Positions 28,523-33,680 of a DNA stretch of 64,000 bases are shown here, piece by piece. Where the stretch lies: the NCBI GenBank assembly GCA_016288205.1, contig JAEEYO010000025.1:62001-126000 (forward strand). The letters run 5' to 3'. A program made the position numbers and the translations under genes. Numbering within the stretch: the first letter of the stretch is position 1; each line of letters opens with the position of its first letter. The DNA comes from Treponema sp. (GTDB taxonomy: Bacteria; Spirochaetota; Spirochaetia; Treponematales; Treponemataceae). Below the pieces are notes generated by a model. It ran no database searches and was not told the origin of the DNA. It saw only the letters and a list, made by a program, of their open reading frames with translations.

Positions 28523-29323
28523 CTATTTTTTACCCTGCTTTTTGTCGGCTTCCATCTTCGCTTTCCAAACACCGGCTTTCTTTTTCATTTCCTCGGCGGC
28601 ATCACTCTCGCCCAGAACCAAGGCAATGCGACGTCCGGCAAGAAGGAAGTTGATAGCCATCTGCATGTCCGGCTCACTTCGGGTTGAAAGCTCGTATTTG
28701 TCGCGGTAGTCCATGGAGCTCTTGTCCAAAAGACGGCGCACAAGCTGGATGTAATAATGGGATGTGTCATGGTCGGGATGTCCGGGCTCATCAAGCACCT
28801 TACCGGCTTCCTTCATATCAAGAAGGTTCTTTGCAACCGTGGTAAAGCGTGCCCTGAGCTCAACAAAAGACCACTTCCACTTTGAGTTGTCACCGAGAGC
28901 ATCGGAAAGTATCTGAATCAGAAGTCCGATTTTACGCACAAGGTAAAAACGCTTCTCAACCTTGAATTCCGGGATTTTCTCAAAGAACGGCGCAAGATCG
29001 CTGTAAGGACAGTCAACAAAATTGGATACGACTTCCTCCAAATAGATTATGGCCTTGTAGATTGTCTTACGGCAGTCGTTCAGTGCCTCGTTGTTTTTGG
29101 TCTCAAGAATCTTGAGCGAGACAGAGTTTATGGACATATAGAGCGTAGATACATAGAGCATTTCATCAGCAAGCTCTATTTTCTTGTACTCCGCACCGTC
29201 CTTGTTGCTACGAATTTCCGCAAGAACCGCCTTTTCCCTGGCCAAGCACTTGTCGATTGAAGCCTTTATGCTCTTGGATCTCTCAGCGAATTCCGCACGA
29301 CGCTCTGTTGGAATATTTGCCAT
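28523..29323 (-). CDS. Helical protein of unknown function
   Basis: 266 residues. Its ATG shares the final A of the recN stop (TAATG) and uses GGAGGAATTTA, so translation is coupled to recN. The chain is almost entirely helical and charged, without signal or membrane segments. Visible blocks are RSKSIKASIDKCLAREKAVL, DEMLYVSTLYMSINSVSLKI and PGHPDHDTSHYYIQLVRRLL. The C-terminus is lysine-rich. No family is recognised. Confidence 0.65.
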   Translation of the reverse strand: MANIPTERRAEFAERSKSIKASIDKCLAREKAVLAEIRSNKDGAEYKKIELADEMLYVSTLYMSINSVSLKILETKNNEALNDCRKTIYKAIIYLEEVVSNFVDCPYSDLAPFFEKIPEFKVEKRFYLVRKIGLLIQILSDALGDNSKWKWSFVELRARFTTVAKNLLDMKEAGKVLDEPGHPDHDTSHYYIQLVRRLLDKSSMDYRDKYELSTRSEPDMQMAINFLLAGRRIALVLGESDAAEEMKKKAGVWKAKMEADKKQGKK

Positions 29324-31029
29324 TAAATTCCTCCGAATCTCTCTAGCATGGAAGCCGCATGTTCCAGTGATGCAGCAGAACTACTGTCTCCCGAAAGCAT
29401 TCTCGCAATCTCCTTGACCCGATTTTCACCCAAAACAGGGAAAACCTTGGTTGATGTAGAGCTTCCGTCCACGCCTTTCTCAATTTTAATCTGATTATCG
29501 GCATAAACGGCGATGCTTGCAAGATGTGTTATGCATAAAATTTGCTTTCTGGACGCTAATTTTTTCATGTGCTCACCGATGGCGACCGCAATTTCCCCTC
29601 CGATTCCTGTGTCAATCTCATCAAACACAAGGGTTCCGACCGTATCAGCGTTGGAAAGTATGGTTTTCATGGCAAGCATCACACGGCTGAGCTCACCACC
29701 GGATGCGATTCTGGCCAAGGGAAGCAATGGGGAGCCCGGATTCGCGCTGATAAGAAACTCAACGTCGTCCATTCCGTAGGGACCGCACTTCTGCACCATT
29801 CCGTCCCCGGATTTTTCCACTATGCCCACACGGAAGCGTGTATCCTTCATACCGAGTTTTTTTAGGATTTCTTCGATCGCACCCGACATTTTTTCAGCCG
29901 CAGCCTTACGTTTCGCACTGATTTGCTTAGCCGCAACGTAAACCTTCTTCTCCGCCTCCGACACAGACTGCTCCAAGGCACTTTTATCCTGAGTAAATGA
30001 AGAAAGCTTTTCCAGCTCATCGCTTGCCTTTTTACAATATGAAAGCAAATCATCCGCCGTAGCCCCCTGATGCGGGACATATTTTTTCTTCAGGCGATTG
30101 AAAAGCTCAAGCCTTTCCTGCACCTCGGCAAGTCTCTCCGGGTCAAAAACAAGGGTCTGGCCGTAATGCCTGAACTCCTGCGAAATGTCCTCAAGCTCAT
30201 AAAAAGCGGATTGCAATCTTCCGTCAAGGGACTCAAGTGATTTGTCCATGGAAACTACCGACGGCAAAACAGAACGGAGTCTTCTCATCGCAGCAAGGAT
30301 ACCGCCCTCGCCCTCGCTTCCGTCAAACGCACCGTTGATTTCCTCTATTCCGCCGTAAAGTTTTTCAAAGGAACTAAGCCGGTTCTCCTCAGCCTCAAGC
30401 TCAGACTCTTCCCCCGCCTTTATGTTCAATGCCTCAATCTCGCTCACGGCAAAAGAAAGCATCTCAATGCGGTTGTTGCGGTCCGACGCATCGCTGTTCA
30501 TCTCGTCAAGTGTGCGCCTTTTTTCGACCAAATCAGCATAAAGGGACGTGAAATTCTTTACCTCGGCGACCAAATCACCATAAATATCAAGATAACGCCT
30601 GTGCTCGGAGACTTTCATCAGAGACTGCTGCTCGTGCTGACCGTGGATGTCCACCAAAAATGATGCGAAACTCAAAAGATCCGCCTTGGTGACGGGGGTT
30701 CCTCCAATCCACGCTGAGGATTTTCCGCTGTCCCGGATCATGCGCCTGATGAGGATTCTGTTTTCGTCGCTCTCAATGCCATGCTCGTCAAGCCATTCCG
30801 CCGCTTCCTTGCCGCCGTCCAAAAGGAAGGTACCAGAAACCTGAGCTTCCGTGCATCCGGTTCGAATCTGCTCCACACCAGCCTTTCCACCGAGCAAAAA
30901 AGCGAGGCTCCCTATGAGTATGGATTTTCCGGCTCCGGTCTCACCGCTCAAAACAGTAAATCCGCCGCCAAATTCCACATGTGCGCTGTCAATCAGTGCA
31001 AAATTCTTTATATCCAATTCCTCAAGCAC
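29323..31029 (-). CDS. recN: DNA repair protein RecN
   Basis: 568 residues, GTG start with GGGAGG upstream. SMC-like ATPase acting at double-strand breaks. Walker A is GETGAGKS (about 29-36), the central part is coiled coil, and the ABC signature/Walker B region reads ASGGELSRVMLAMK then LVFDEIDTGIGGEIAVAIG, with CITHLASIA after it. Length is standard. The start overlaps the nadK stop by eight bases, giving a nadK-recN-orphan coupled unit. Confidence 0.96.
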   Translation of the reverse strand: MLEELDIKNFALIDSAHVEFGGGFTVLSGETGAGKSILIGSLAFLLGGKAGVEQIRTGCTEAQVSGTFLLDGGKEAAEWLDEHGIESDENRILIRRMIRDSGKSSAWIGGTPVTKADLLSFASFLVDIHGQHEQQSLMKVSEHRRYLDIYGDLVAEVKNFTSLYADLVEKRRTLDEMNSDASDRNNRIEMLSFAVSEIEALNIKAGEESELEAEENRLSSFEKLYGGIEEINGAFDGSEGEGGILAAMRRLRSVLPSVVSMDKSLESLDGRLQSAFYELEDISQEFRHYGQTLVFDPERLAEVQERLELFNRLKKKYVPHQGATADDLLSYCKKASDELEKLSSFTQDKSALEQSVSEAEKKVYVAAKQISAKRKAAAEKMSGAIEEILKKLGMKDTRFRVGIVEKSGDGMVQKCGPYGMDDVEFLISANPGSPLLPLARIASGGELSRVMLAMKTILSNADTVGTLVFDEIDTGIGGEIAVAIGEHMKKLASRKQILCITHLASIAVYADNQIKIEKGVDGSSTSTKVFPVLGENRVKEIARMLSGDSSSAASLEHAASMLERFGGI

Positions 31030-31876
31030 GTGGACCTCCCGCCCAGTTCAGCTTGCTTTGTAATGCAGCATAAAACTTTTCAAGTGTATAGCCCGCAAGT
31101 TTAACCGTATACGGAGGAATGCTCAGTTCCACACGGTCATCCTTAAGCAGGGCAAAATCTATCTGTCCGTCCACCGTCAGTCCCACATCGGTCCTGGACT
31201 CCAGCACACGGATTTCAAGTTTTCCGTCGGCAGAAAAAACAATGGGTCGGGCAGAAAGACTAAATGAGCTGATCGGAGTGAGTACCAAAGCTTTCAAGCT
31301 CGGTGAAATGATTGGGCCTCCCGCACCCGCAGAATACGCCGTTGATCCGGTCGCAGTAGAAACAATGAGTCCGTTCGCCTTGAAGGGGCCCAAAAACGCA
31401 CCGTCATAGGAAACGTCCATGTTTATGAGCCTTGAAGCCGCAGTACTTGAGACCGTCACATCATTCAGGCCCGTAGCCTCAAACACAGACTGTCCGTTAC
31501 GGAACACCTCGGCTGTCACCAGATGCCGCTCGCTGCAGGGAAGTTTTTCTTCTATATATAGGCCCAGAAATTCCTTCCAGTCAGATTTCTGTATGCCGGC
31601 AAGAAATCCGAACTCCCCCAGATTTACGGCAAAAACCGGAAGCCCCAAGGGACCGCAGCCACGGGAAGCGAACAACACGGTTCCGTCTCCCCCCAAAGTG
31701 ATGACAAAATCAACGCCCAAAAATGACGTGCTCACCTCTTTGCCAAAAGCACTCTGTCCGTCATAGGAAAAAGTCCTGACGCCAATGCCCCTCTGCTCCA
31801 GGAAAAGCTCAATTTCCCGGCCCATTTCCGAGGCATCCTTTTTGAATGTGTTTATGACAATCAGGCAACGTTTCAT
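31022..31876 (-). CDS. nadK: NAD kinase
   Basis: 284 residues. Phosphorylates NAD to NADP. GGDGT is at 62-66, followed by NLGEFGFL and the second conserved block NGLIVSTATGSTAYSAGAGG. Ribosome-binding site GGAGAAAATAA. The adjacency nadK-recN is common in bacteria and supports the call. Confidence 0.95.
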   Translation of the reverse strand: MKRCLIVINTFKKDASEMGREIELFLEQRGIGVRTFSYDGQSAFGKEVSTSFLGVDFVITLGGDGTVLFASRGCGPLGLPVFAVNLGEFGFLAGIQKSDWKEFLGLYIEEKLPCSERHLVTAEVFRNGQSVFEATGLNDVTVSSTAASRLINMDVSYDGAFLGPFKANGLIVSTATGSTAYSAGAGGPIISPSLKALVLTPISSFSLSARPIVFSADGKLEIRVLESRTDVGLTVDGQIDFALLKDDRVELSIPPYTVKLAGYTLEKFYAALQSKLNWAGGPRA

Positions 31877-31913: not shown

Positions 31914-33029
31914 TCATGGCAGCGACGAAAGGACTTTGACCACCCTCGAGGCATCCTTTTGTCCAAGGCGTGGATAAAGCGGGAACAATGCGCTCCTGAG
32001 CAAAAGTGAATTCGCACAGATGCACTGTCCGGCAAGTTCTTCCTGTCTCATCGCAATGATGGAGTCCTCATAGGCCTGCCTAATCTCTATCCCTTTTTTC
32101 TGGGCATAGGCTTTCACGTCCTTGAATCCAGAATTCAGCACGAGCGGGAATGAGTAGATTGTGGATCCCTCATCGGACGCACGCACAAAGGTCTTGTGTT
32201 TTCCAGCCATAATCGCACGGTTGTAAAGGGCAAAAAGATCCCTTCTGGTAGCCTCGTTTCTCTTGAACTCCTTGATTTCAACAAAAGCAAGGGCAGCGTT
32301 CATATCCGGCATAATGTCCGTGCTGGGGGCGTTGTCCGCTATGGCCTTGAGCGTAATCCATTCCTTCCGGGCGGGCGCAAAAACAACGGCTCCTCCTCCC
32401 GCAGTGATTATGTCCGTGTCCTCCATTCCAAAAATGGCATATTTTCCATACATTCCGGCAGATTTTCCCTTTGGAGCCTCAGCCTCATCCTTTTCTTCCC
32501 CGGTCTTTTCTGCTTTTTCATTTCCACCCTGATTCTGTGCCTCCTCCGAAGCCTCCACAGGATAGTATGAGAGAGCCGACTGAGAAATATCCTCAATTAC
32601 CGGTATGTCAAGTCCAAGATAGCTTTTCATGTCCGGCAGGATTCCCATGTTTTCCCTCAGGACCAGAACACGACCGCCCTCAGAAACGGCCTCCTCCACA
32701 TTTTTCATGGGAACAAGCCCCGTGCTTTCCTCAACGTCAAGAACCATCGGAACATAGCCAAGCTTTTCCACGGTAAGAATCTGCCACGCTGGAGCCAATG
32801 CGCTCAACATCACCTTAGCCCCGGCCTGCAAGTCCAAAGCATGGAGGGCATATTCAAGGGCGATTGCCGAACTTCTCACTGCCACGGCGCCATCGCATTT
32901 TGTCACTTCCTTTACGGTCTGAATCAAGCGGGCATTCATTTCCCCCGGACCGATTTTTTCATCCACCATGCAAGTCAGCACGGCCTCCATTTCCTTGCGT
33001 CTTATGGTCGAGCTGTACGTCTGTATCAT
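31914..33029 (-). CDS. DegT/DnrJ-type PLP-fold protein lacking the catalytic lysine
   Basis: 371 residues. The fold matches DegT/DnrJ/EryC1/StrS sugar aminotransferases: VRSSAIALEYALHALDLQAG where GTxAL occurs, then VMLSALAP, PMVLDVEESTGLV and VIEDISQSAL (Glu146-Asp147, PLP ring contacts). In the region that normally reads SFxxxKxxTTGEGG it has IFGMEDTDIITAGGGAVV, so the Schiff-base lysine aligns with Thr205. A charged, disordered insert (about 158-192) precedes this. It is therefore unlikely to be an aminotransferase; a regulatory, scaffold or sugar-binding role is possible. It stands between nadK and cheW with no obvious sugar-nucleotide cluster. Confidence 0.7.
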   Translation of the reverse strand: MIQTYSSTIRRKEMEAVLTCMVDEKIGPGEMNARLIQTVKEVTKCDGAVAVRSSAIALEYALHALDLQAGAKVMLSALAPAWQILTVEKLGYVPMVLDVEESTGLVPMKNVEEAVSEGGRVLVLRENMGILPDMKSYLGLDIPVIEDISQSALSYYPVEASEEAQNQGGNEKAEKTGEEKDEAEAPKGKSAGMYGKYAIFGMEDTDIITAGGGAVVFAPARKEWITLKAIADNAPSTDIMPDMNAALAFVEIKEFKRNEATRRDLFALYNRAIMAGKHKTFVRASDEGSTIYSFPLVLNSGFKDVKAYAQKKGIEIRQAYEDSIIAMRQEELAGQCICANSLLLRSALFPLYPRLGQKDASRVVKVLSSLP

Positions 33030-33148: not shown

Positions 33149-33640
33149 TCAAGCTCCCGGCTCCAAAATCTTCTGAAGCTCGTTGGCATTGAACATCTTG
33201 CGAGTGTCCAAAATAATCAGGTAGGCTGTTTCCTGCCTTACGACACCCTCAATATATTCAGTACCGATTCCGCTCAGCATCTGTGGCGGCGGCTTAATCT
33301 CACTGCGCTCCACCGGAACAACGCGGTTGATGCGGTCAATTATGATTCCAATCTTGTTTCCCTCAATGTCCAGGATTATGAATCCACCCTCATCCTCGTC
33401 ATAAAGGTCCTCTTCCTCTGTTACCTTCCTCTTTTGGATATGGAAGCGTTTGTGCAGATTGATAATCGGGATAATCTCACCACGGAGATTGATGATTCCC
33501 TCTACATAATACGGTGCGTTCGGGATTGGACGAACCGTCTGCACCTTCACGATTTCCTTGACATCCATGATGTCCACGCCGTACAGCTCATCACCAAGCT
33601 GAAATGTTACCAGCTGATACTGTGTATTTTCCTCGGCCAT
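33149..33640 (-). CDS. cheW: Chemotaxis adaptor CheW
   Basis: 163 residues from ATG 33640, with GGAGGAGTCAGGA upstream; an upstream in-frame extension to 33676 was not used. It links chemoreceptors to CheA. Landmarks are QLVTFQLGDELYGVDIMDVK, PNAPYYVEGIINLRGEIIPI and IGIIIDRINRVV, with a short acidic insert (EEEDLYDEDEGG) before the second half. It appears to be monocistronic, separated from comF by a palindromic repeat. Confidence 0.95.
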   Translation of the reverse strand: MAEENTQYQLVTFQLGDELYGVDIMDVKEIVKVQTVRPIPNAPYYVEGIINLRGEIIPIINLHKRFHIQKRKVTEEEDLYDEDEGGFIILDIEGNKIGIIIDRINRVVPVERSEIKPPPQMLSGIGTEYIEGVVRQETAYLIILDTRKMFNANELQKILEPGA

Positions 33641-33680
33641 TCCTGACTCCTCCAAAAACAATATTTTTAGAAACACTTAT

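Follow-up and report, generated by a model that had tools for sequence, protein, structure and literature searches.

The window analyzed here is a stretch of 64,000 nucleotides from a Treponema sp. (GenBank assembly GCA_016288205.1, contig JAEEYO010000025.1, positions 62,001 to 126,000). Positions 31914-33029 of the window are filled, on the minus strand, by a single intact open frame with an ATG start, encoding a protein of 371 aa. We use the name DegTx for this lysine-less DegT-fold protein and for its homologues. The upstream neighbour was cheW (33149-33676, minus strand), while nadK, encoding NAD kinase (31022-31876, minus strand), was found downstream, with recN (29323-31029, minus strand) next in the gene order. 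A 266-aa protein with no Pfam match is encoded after recN (28523-29323, minus strand); it is a conserved neighbour, with the same location in many Spirochaetia loci. An earlier, sequence-only reading of the locus had described the DegTx gene as intact, which proved correct; its strand is the minus strand.

At an E value up to 1, the only Pfam match of the window protein was PF01041 (DegT/DnrJ/EryC1/StrS), with a score of 79.5 bits versus a cut-off of 19.8. None of the NCBIfam models reached its cut-off on this protein. The best of them scored 58.3 bits versus 420 (LegC), and the named sugar aminotransferase models also remained below their cut-offs, with 53.3 versus 631 bits for ArnB, 44.2 versus 423.5 for PseC, and 28.9 versus 434.85 for WecE. 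Because PF01041 is the only Pfam match and no NCBIfam cut-off is reached, automatic annotation would tend to label DegTx an aminotransferase. The AlphaFold model of the window protein, computed from 56 sequences, had a mean pLDDT of 90.6, and its best structural match was ArnB, the UDP-4-amino-4-deoxy-L-arabinose aminotransferase (Z 41, 338 aligned residues, rmsd 2.3). Based on the PF01041 match and on the superposition of the predicted model on ArnB, the window protein is a DegT-fold protein.

For each genome, the DegTx sequence taken was the best match to either the window protein or an order-level profile, and the missing lysine was not used as a criterion. A total of 136 DegTx sequences were aligned, all from the Spirochaetota: 63 at the order level, 16 at the class level (79 Spirochaetia sequences), and 57 deep ones from the rest of the phylum. 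They were compared with 33 lysine-bearing spirochaete DegT paralogues from the window genome and related genomes, which formed the alignment A2. The alignment A1 comprised 56 DegTx orthologues from 59 order-level loci, L052, L024, and L030 being left out. The gene was a single open frame in 58 of the 59 order-level loci. The exception was L052 (genome G051), in which the frame was split into two overlapping open frames; this locus was left out of all alignments. In addition, we examined 80 loci from named records, the best 80 of 420 relatives obtained in a scan for a Treponema-type motif. All 80 came from Treponema or unresolved spirochaete records, and they partly represent the same genomes as the other sets, from which they are not independent.

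In the profile-profile alignment of A1 and A2 (hhalign), which ran ungapped through the site, Asp206 of the window protein (codon at 32412-32414, minus strand) was paired with the invariant Schiff-base lysine of the lysine-bearing DegT proteins, the window genome's own paralogue among them. Asp206 belongs to an altered lysine loop (residues 199-214, IFGMEDTDIITAGGGA; 32388-32435, minus strand), which also carries Glu203. The sequence-only reading had assigned the lysine position to Thr205 on the basis of the motif GMEDTDIITAGGGA. This motif is present, residue 205 is a Thr and the lysine is absent, but the true equivalent is Asp206, one residue further on. Thr205 was rejected on the grounds of the hhalign result and of the paralogues themselves, in which the residue before the Schiff-base lysine was mostly Thr (23 of the 33 sequences).

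Overall, the Schiff-base position was a lysine in none of the 136 DegTx sequences versus all 33 spirochaete paralogues in the same alignment, and the window protein, with D206, lacks the lysine that PLP-dependent DegT aminotransferases carry in their SFxxxK loop. The main claim of the earlier reading, a DegT-fold protein without its PLP lysine, was thus borne out by the Pfam match, the fold, hhalign, and the alignment counts. The residue that replaces the lysine was Asp in most order-level sequences (49 out of 63), mixed at the class level (Gly in six of the 16 sequences, Asp in four, others in the rest), while Met (24) and Ser (11) were the commonest residues in the 57 deep sequences. It was Asp in all of the 80 named-record loci (best 80 of 420). 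We searched for an alternative alignment with a lysine in the site, as well as for orthologues retaining the lysine; neither was found among the DegTx homologues examined (136, 103, and six sequences, in overlapping sets).

Other lysines were also considered. Position 205 was a lysine in 13 of the 136 DegTx sequences and was scattered otherwise; therefore, no conserved catalytic lysine was recognized there, and Lys205 was rejected as a substitute Schiff base. K12, K311, and K365 were rejected in the same way. No lysine column of the window protein exceeded 106 of the 136 sequences, and thus no substitute Schiff base was apparent. In the DegTx of family f25 (L205, L210, and L281; g60), the lysine position was occupied by Arg. 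In the two genomes tested, these proteins matched PF01041 with about 230 bits, far above other DegTx, and they may represent a less altered form.

The rest of the cofactor pocket appeared to be remodelled as well. In DegT aminotransferases, a Thr and the aromatic residue after it (positions 79 and 80 here) form a pair facing PLP, with the aromatic residue stacking on its ring. Among the lysine-bearing paralogues, Thr was found at position 79 in 33 of 33 sequences and Phe or Tyr at position 80 in 32 of 33. The window protein has A79-P80 instead, order-level DegTx have Ala or Ser at position 79 and almost always Pro at position 80, and the complete pair was observed in none of the 136 DegTx sequences; Thr79 alone was kept in four of the 57 deep ones. 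Asp147 (codon at 32589-32591, minus strand), the equivalent of the Asp to which the PLP pyridine nitrogen is paired, was retained in 134 of the 136 DegTx sequences and in all 33 paralogues. Judging from this retention, PLP, PMP, or another planar ligand could still be held non-covalently.

Arg52 (codon at 32874-32876, minus strand) lies in the loop which, in DegT enzymes, faces the PLP phosphate. Arg52 and Glu203 were both present in all 79 Spirochaetia sequences. Arg52 was observed in none of the 57 deep sequences and in none of the 33 paralogues, and Glu203 in only one of the deep sequences. By homology, the two residues occupy the former phosphate and lysine loops, where they probably form a salt bridge that would fill part of the pocket in the Spirochaetia. 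Moreover, the loop from G213 to A246 was 43-56 residues long in the paralogues; in Spirochaetia DegTx it had 30-34 residues, and in deep DegTx 30-45, the latter range overlapping that of the paralogues. Deep DegTx also kept more of the old lysine loop, with Ser at position 201 in 40 and Phe at position 202 in 47 of the 57 sequences. The acidic insert that the earlier reading had noted before the site (about residues 157-190; 32460-32561, minus strand) is real; however, it varies between lineages and is poorly predicted (pLDDT of 49-66 for the block 161-190), and it lies outside the defining change. Its length differed between species, and 23 of the 63 order-level homologues had at least 20 residues there.

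DegTx therefore resembles ArnB and the other DegT aminotransferases in its whole fold, its PF01041 match, and its pyridine-nitrogen Asp, but differs from them in having neither the Schiff-base lysine nor the Thr-aromatic pair; compared with lysine-bearing DegT proteins, the active-site loop of the Spirochaetia forms is also shorter, and DegTx occupies its own side of the tree. As far as its residues tell, the evidence says that DegTx cannot work as an ordinary aminotransferase, and it very probably does another job.

To place the loss of the lysine, we built two trees, in which the lysine-bearing sequences were spirochaete paralogues and, in the careful tree only, eight plasmid-borne proteins from other phyla besides. 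In the careful tree of 62 proteins, from which the site columns had been removed, a branch with 100/100 support separated all 45 lysine-less proteins from the lysine-bearing ones, namely nine of spirochaetes and the eight others, which were intermingled. In a quick tree, in which the site was left in, the 15 lysine-bearing sequences were likewise set apart by a branch (support 99). The placement of the f25 sequences was unsure: they stood beside the lysine-bearing sequences in the quick tree (81), but inside the lysine-less side in the careful tree (92/79). The tree is most simply read as one early loss of the Schiff-base lysine, on the stem branch of the Spirochaetota forms, with the gene inherited vertically thereafter. 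As the trees are unrooted, a loss rather than a gain is suggested by the spread of the lysine across the family. The change runs through the phylum and looks to have a single origin. The eight plasmid matches were all ordinary arnB genes (20-28% identity), and a plasmid origin of DegTx was rejected, as was a phage origin, since no DegTx match was found in the phage collection.

DegTx matches were found in 59 of the 59 genomes of the order that were searched, the window's own included. Across the phylum, 244 of 296 genomes had a match at an E value of 1e-15; weak matches in this set may be ordinary DegT proteins. The deep loci were drawn from the stronger matches; genomes with weak matches (E of about 1e-16 to 1e-25) were left out, and so were the 52 of the 296 genomes without a match, of which 32 were not among the genomes listed. 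Family f7 had no genome among the matches listed in the phylum search. The gene was retained, beside cheW, nadK, and recN, in a genome of only 1,139,633 bp in a single contig (G114). In this genome, the DegTx protein (L173) was identical to the window protein at 148 of 341 aligned residues; the part after window residue 281 was longer, with 146 versus 91 residues, and reached the common C-terminal end.

DegTx is under strong purifying selection. For three DegTx pairs, dN/dS was 0.067, 0.094, and 0.111, and for one nadK pair it was 0.075; these are single pairs, with a dS of 1.3-2.3 for DegTx, and the values are hence rough. Together with the absence of the lysine across the Treponema loci and beyond, this selection supports the retained, non-aminotransferase function that the sequence-only reading had implied.

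Gene order was compared in loci with enough flanking sequence. At the order level, the gene immediately upstream of DegTx was cheW in 54 of 56 loci and the one immediately downstream was nadK in 62 of 63; at the class level, the corresponding counts were 10 of 14 and 16 of 16. DegTx, nadK, and recN followed one another in most Spirochaetia loci (recN was not found after nadK in L037, L176, and L177), and the order cheW, DegTx, nadK, recN was common in the class. Among the deep loci, DegTx had nadK as a direct neighbour in 8 of 57 loci, whereas cheW adjoined it in 5 of 54. Two of them (L194 and L197) showed cheW-DegTx-nadK, and a third (L196) did likewise with one STAS-domain gene in between; because of these loci, the arrangement may be ancestral. 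In the conserved neighbourhood of Treponema, only cheW, nadK, and recN were seen, with no pathway genes.

A PTPS-family gene was located directly downstream of DegTx in 26 of the 57 deep loci (L195, L198, L201-L204, L209, and 19 of L242-L281). Nevertheless, no PTPS match was obtained in 19 of 25 DegTx genomes tested; a dependence of DegTx on PTPS was thus rejected, and the link is at most local. CheW was not matched in any of the 12 genomes of family f13 that were tested, all of which keep a DegTx without the lysine and with nadK adjoining; DegTx is therefore not tied to chemotaxis. Conversely, in two f7 genomes tested, CheW was present and a PF01041 match was absent. Finally, DegTx was the only PF01041 protein at an E value of 1e-10 in 10 of 25 genomes, and all ten proteins, when inspected, lacked the lysine; other PF01041 paralogues were present in the window's own genome. 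Persisting in genomes without CheW, PTPS, or any other DegT protein, DegTx therefore depends on none of them.

These observations bear unequally on the possible explanations. The strongest rival to the reading we prefer, although a rather unlikely one, is that DegTx is a new, PLP-independent enzyme, whose old pocket would carry out acid-base chemistry with no cofactor on a substrate resembling a sugar or a nucleotide, using the conserved residues Arg52, Asp147, Glu203, Asp242, Asn244, and Arg262. All six showed little or no variation across the order-level orthologues, and three of them sit in loops lining the DegT active site. However, the rarity of Arg52 and Glu203 in the deep sequences means that a chemistry shared across the phylum would need other residues, and the Treponema neighbourhood, limited to cheW, nadK, and recN, offers no pathway to which such an enzyme would belong. 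DegT enzymes without the lysine are known among the ColD and E1 (RfbH) dehydratases, and a PMP-dependent 3-dehydratase of this kind, in which the lysine is replaced and PMP is bound non-covalently, would be compatible with the retained Asp147 and with the presence of ColD and E1 among the structural matches of the DegTx model. The two share with DegTx a DegT fold without the lysine, but they carry His at the site, in agreement with the titles of the structures 3bb8 and 3b8x, which name H220 and H188. In DegTx, the position was Asp in the Treponema loci, the window and the 80 named-record loci included, and varied freely elsewhere. His was found in only 3 of 136 sequences (none of the 63 order-level, one of the 16 class-level, and two of the 57 deep ones). 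In addition, the Thr-aromatic pair is gone, the loop is mostly shortened, and the RfbH model scored 23.8 bits on the window protein versus a cut-off of 423. The dehydratase-like role put forward in the earlier reading is accordingly disfavoured, and we regard it as improbable; the regulatory or cell-surface role that it also named may apply.

Lysine-less LCB1 is a subunit of serine palmitoyltransferase and, by analogy, DegTx might be an inactive subunit pairing with a catalytic DegT paralogue. Like DegTx, LCB1/SPTLC1 is a PLP-fold protein which lost its lysine and was kept all the same, although it belongs to another family. A strong match to an ordinary DegT protein (E of 1e-40) was indeed found in 36 of 39 relatives, but the ten genomes in which DegTx is the sole PF01041 protein provide no catalytic paralogue, so that a heterodimer with an ordinary DegT protein is not obligate across the family, and this explanation seems very improbable. 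An accessory role in chemotaxis, together with the neighbouring CheW, is suggested by the position of cheW in the order-level loci; given that f13 genomes keep DegTx next to nadK with no CheW match, that cheW adjoins few of the deep loci, and that the two f7 genomes have CheW and no PF01041 match, we consider it more doubtful still. The least credible explanation is that the gene is decaying or an artefact, or that the alignment is misplaced and the lysine lies elsewhere. The split frame of L052 and the 13 sequences with a lysine at position 205 would fit with it; the purifying selection, the single open frames in all of the other order-level loci, the ungapped profile alignment, and the lack of a well-conserved lysine column speak against it.

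Lysine-less proteins of PLP folds, such as ColD/E1 and LCB1, were already known. A phylum-wide clade of lysine-less DegT proteins, kept even in a 1.14-Mb genome, was not found in the open papers searched, and neither was any work on DegTx, passages of PMC6522883 included; subscription journals were mostly outside the scope of this search. DegTx clearly exemplifies how an old enzyme fold can be put to work without catalysis or without PLP, since it was found in all 59 genomes of the order, some of them without another DegT protein, and in the 1.14-Mb genome, though it is no ordinary aminotransferase.

The reading we prefer is that DegTx is a PLP-free pseudo-aminotransferase. According to this proposal, the Schiff-base lysine would have been lost early, and the DegT fold kept while the cofactor pocket was remodelled: the lysine and the Thr-aromatic pair were replaced in every aligned homologue and much of the active-site loop was shortened, while the pyridine-binding Asp stayed. 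The protein would most likely be a non-transaminating housekeeping dimer, as other DegT proteins dimerise. The vacated pocket might bind a protein partner or else a small ligand, phosphorylated or similar to a sugar nucleotide, and DegTx would act as a sensor or scaffold; this is the weakest step of the proposal. Taken jointly, early loss, remodelled pocket, and a housekeeping dimer serving as sensor or scaffold appear reasonably probable to us. More tentatively, and with rather less than even confidence, DegTx might be a core spirochaete pseudoenzyme dating from the ancestor of the phylum, a cofactor-free sensor or scaffold related perhaps to the cell envelope or to NAD(P) supply. The latter is suggested by nadK, which was directly 3' of DegTx in 78 of the 79 Spirochaetia loci, and the former by a divergently transcribed RlpA-type gene, with DPBB and SPOR domains, which adjoined DegTx in 27 of the 57 deep loci (for example L201:6183-7130 and L207:3642-4562).

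PTPS and RlpA-type neighbours occurred together in 19 of the 57 deep loci. Pfam confirmed PTPS in five loci and RlpA in three, the other counts being obtained with small profiles built from those; many of the deep loci with these neighbours are interrelated, and the counts are thus not independent. The PTPS proteins carried the motif CExxHGH in all 26 deep and all 8 Treponematales cases, a form which, according to PMC5041015, hybrids between the queuosine and folate types may show.
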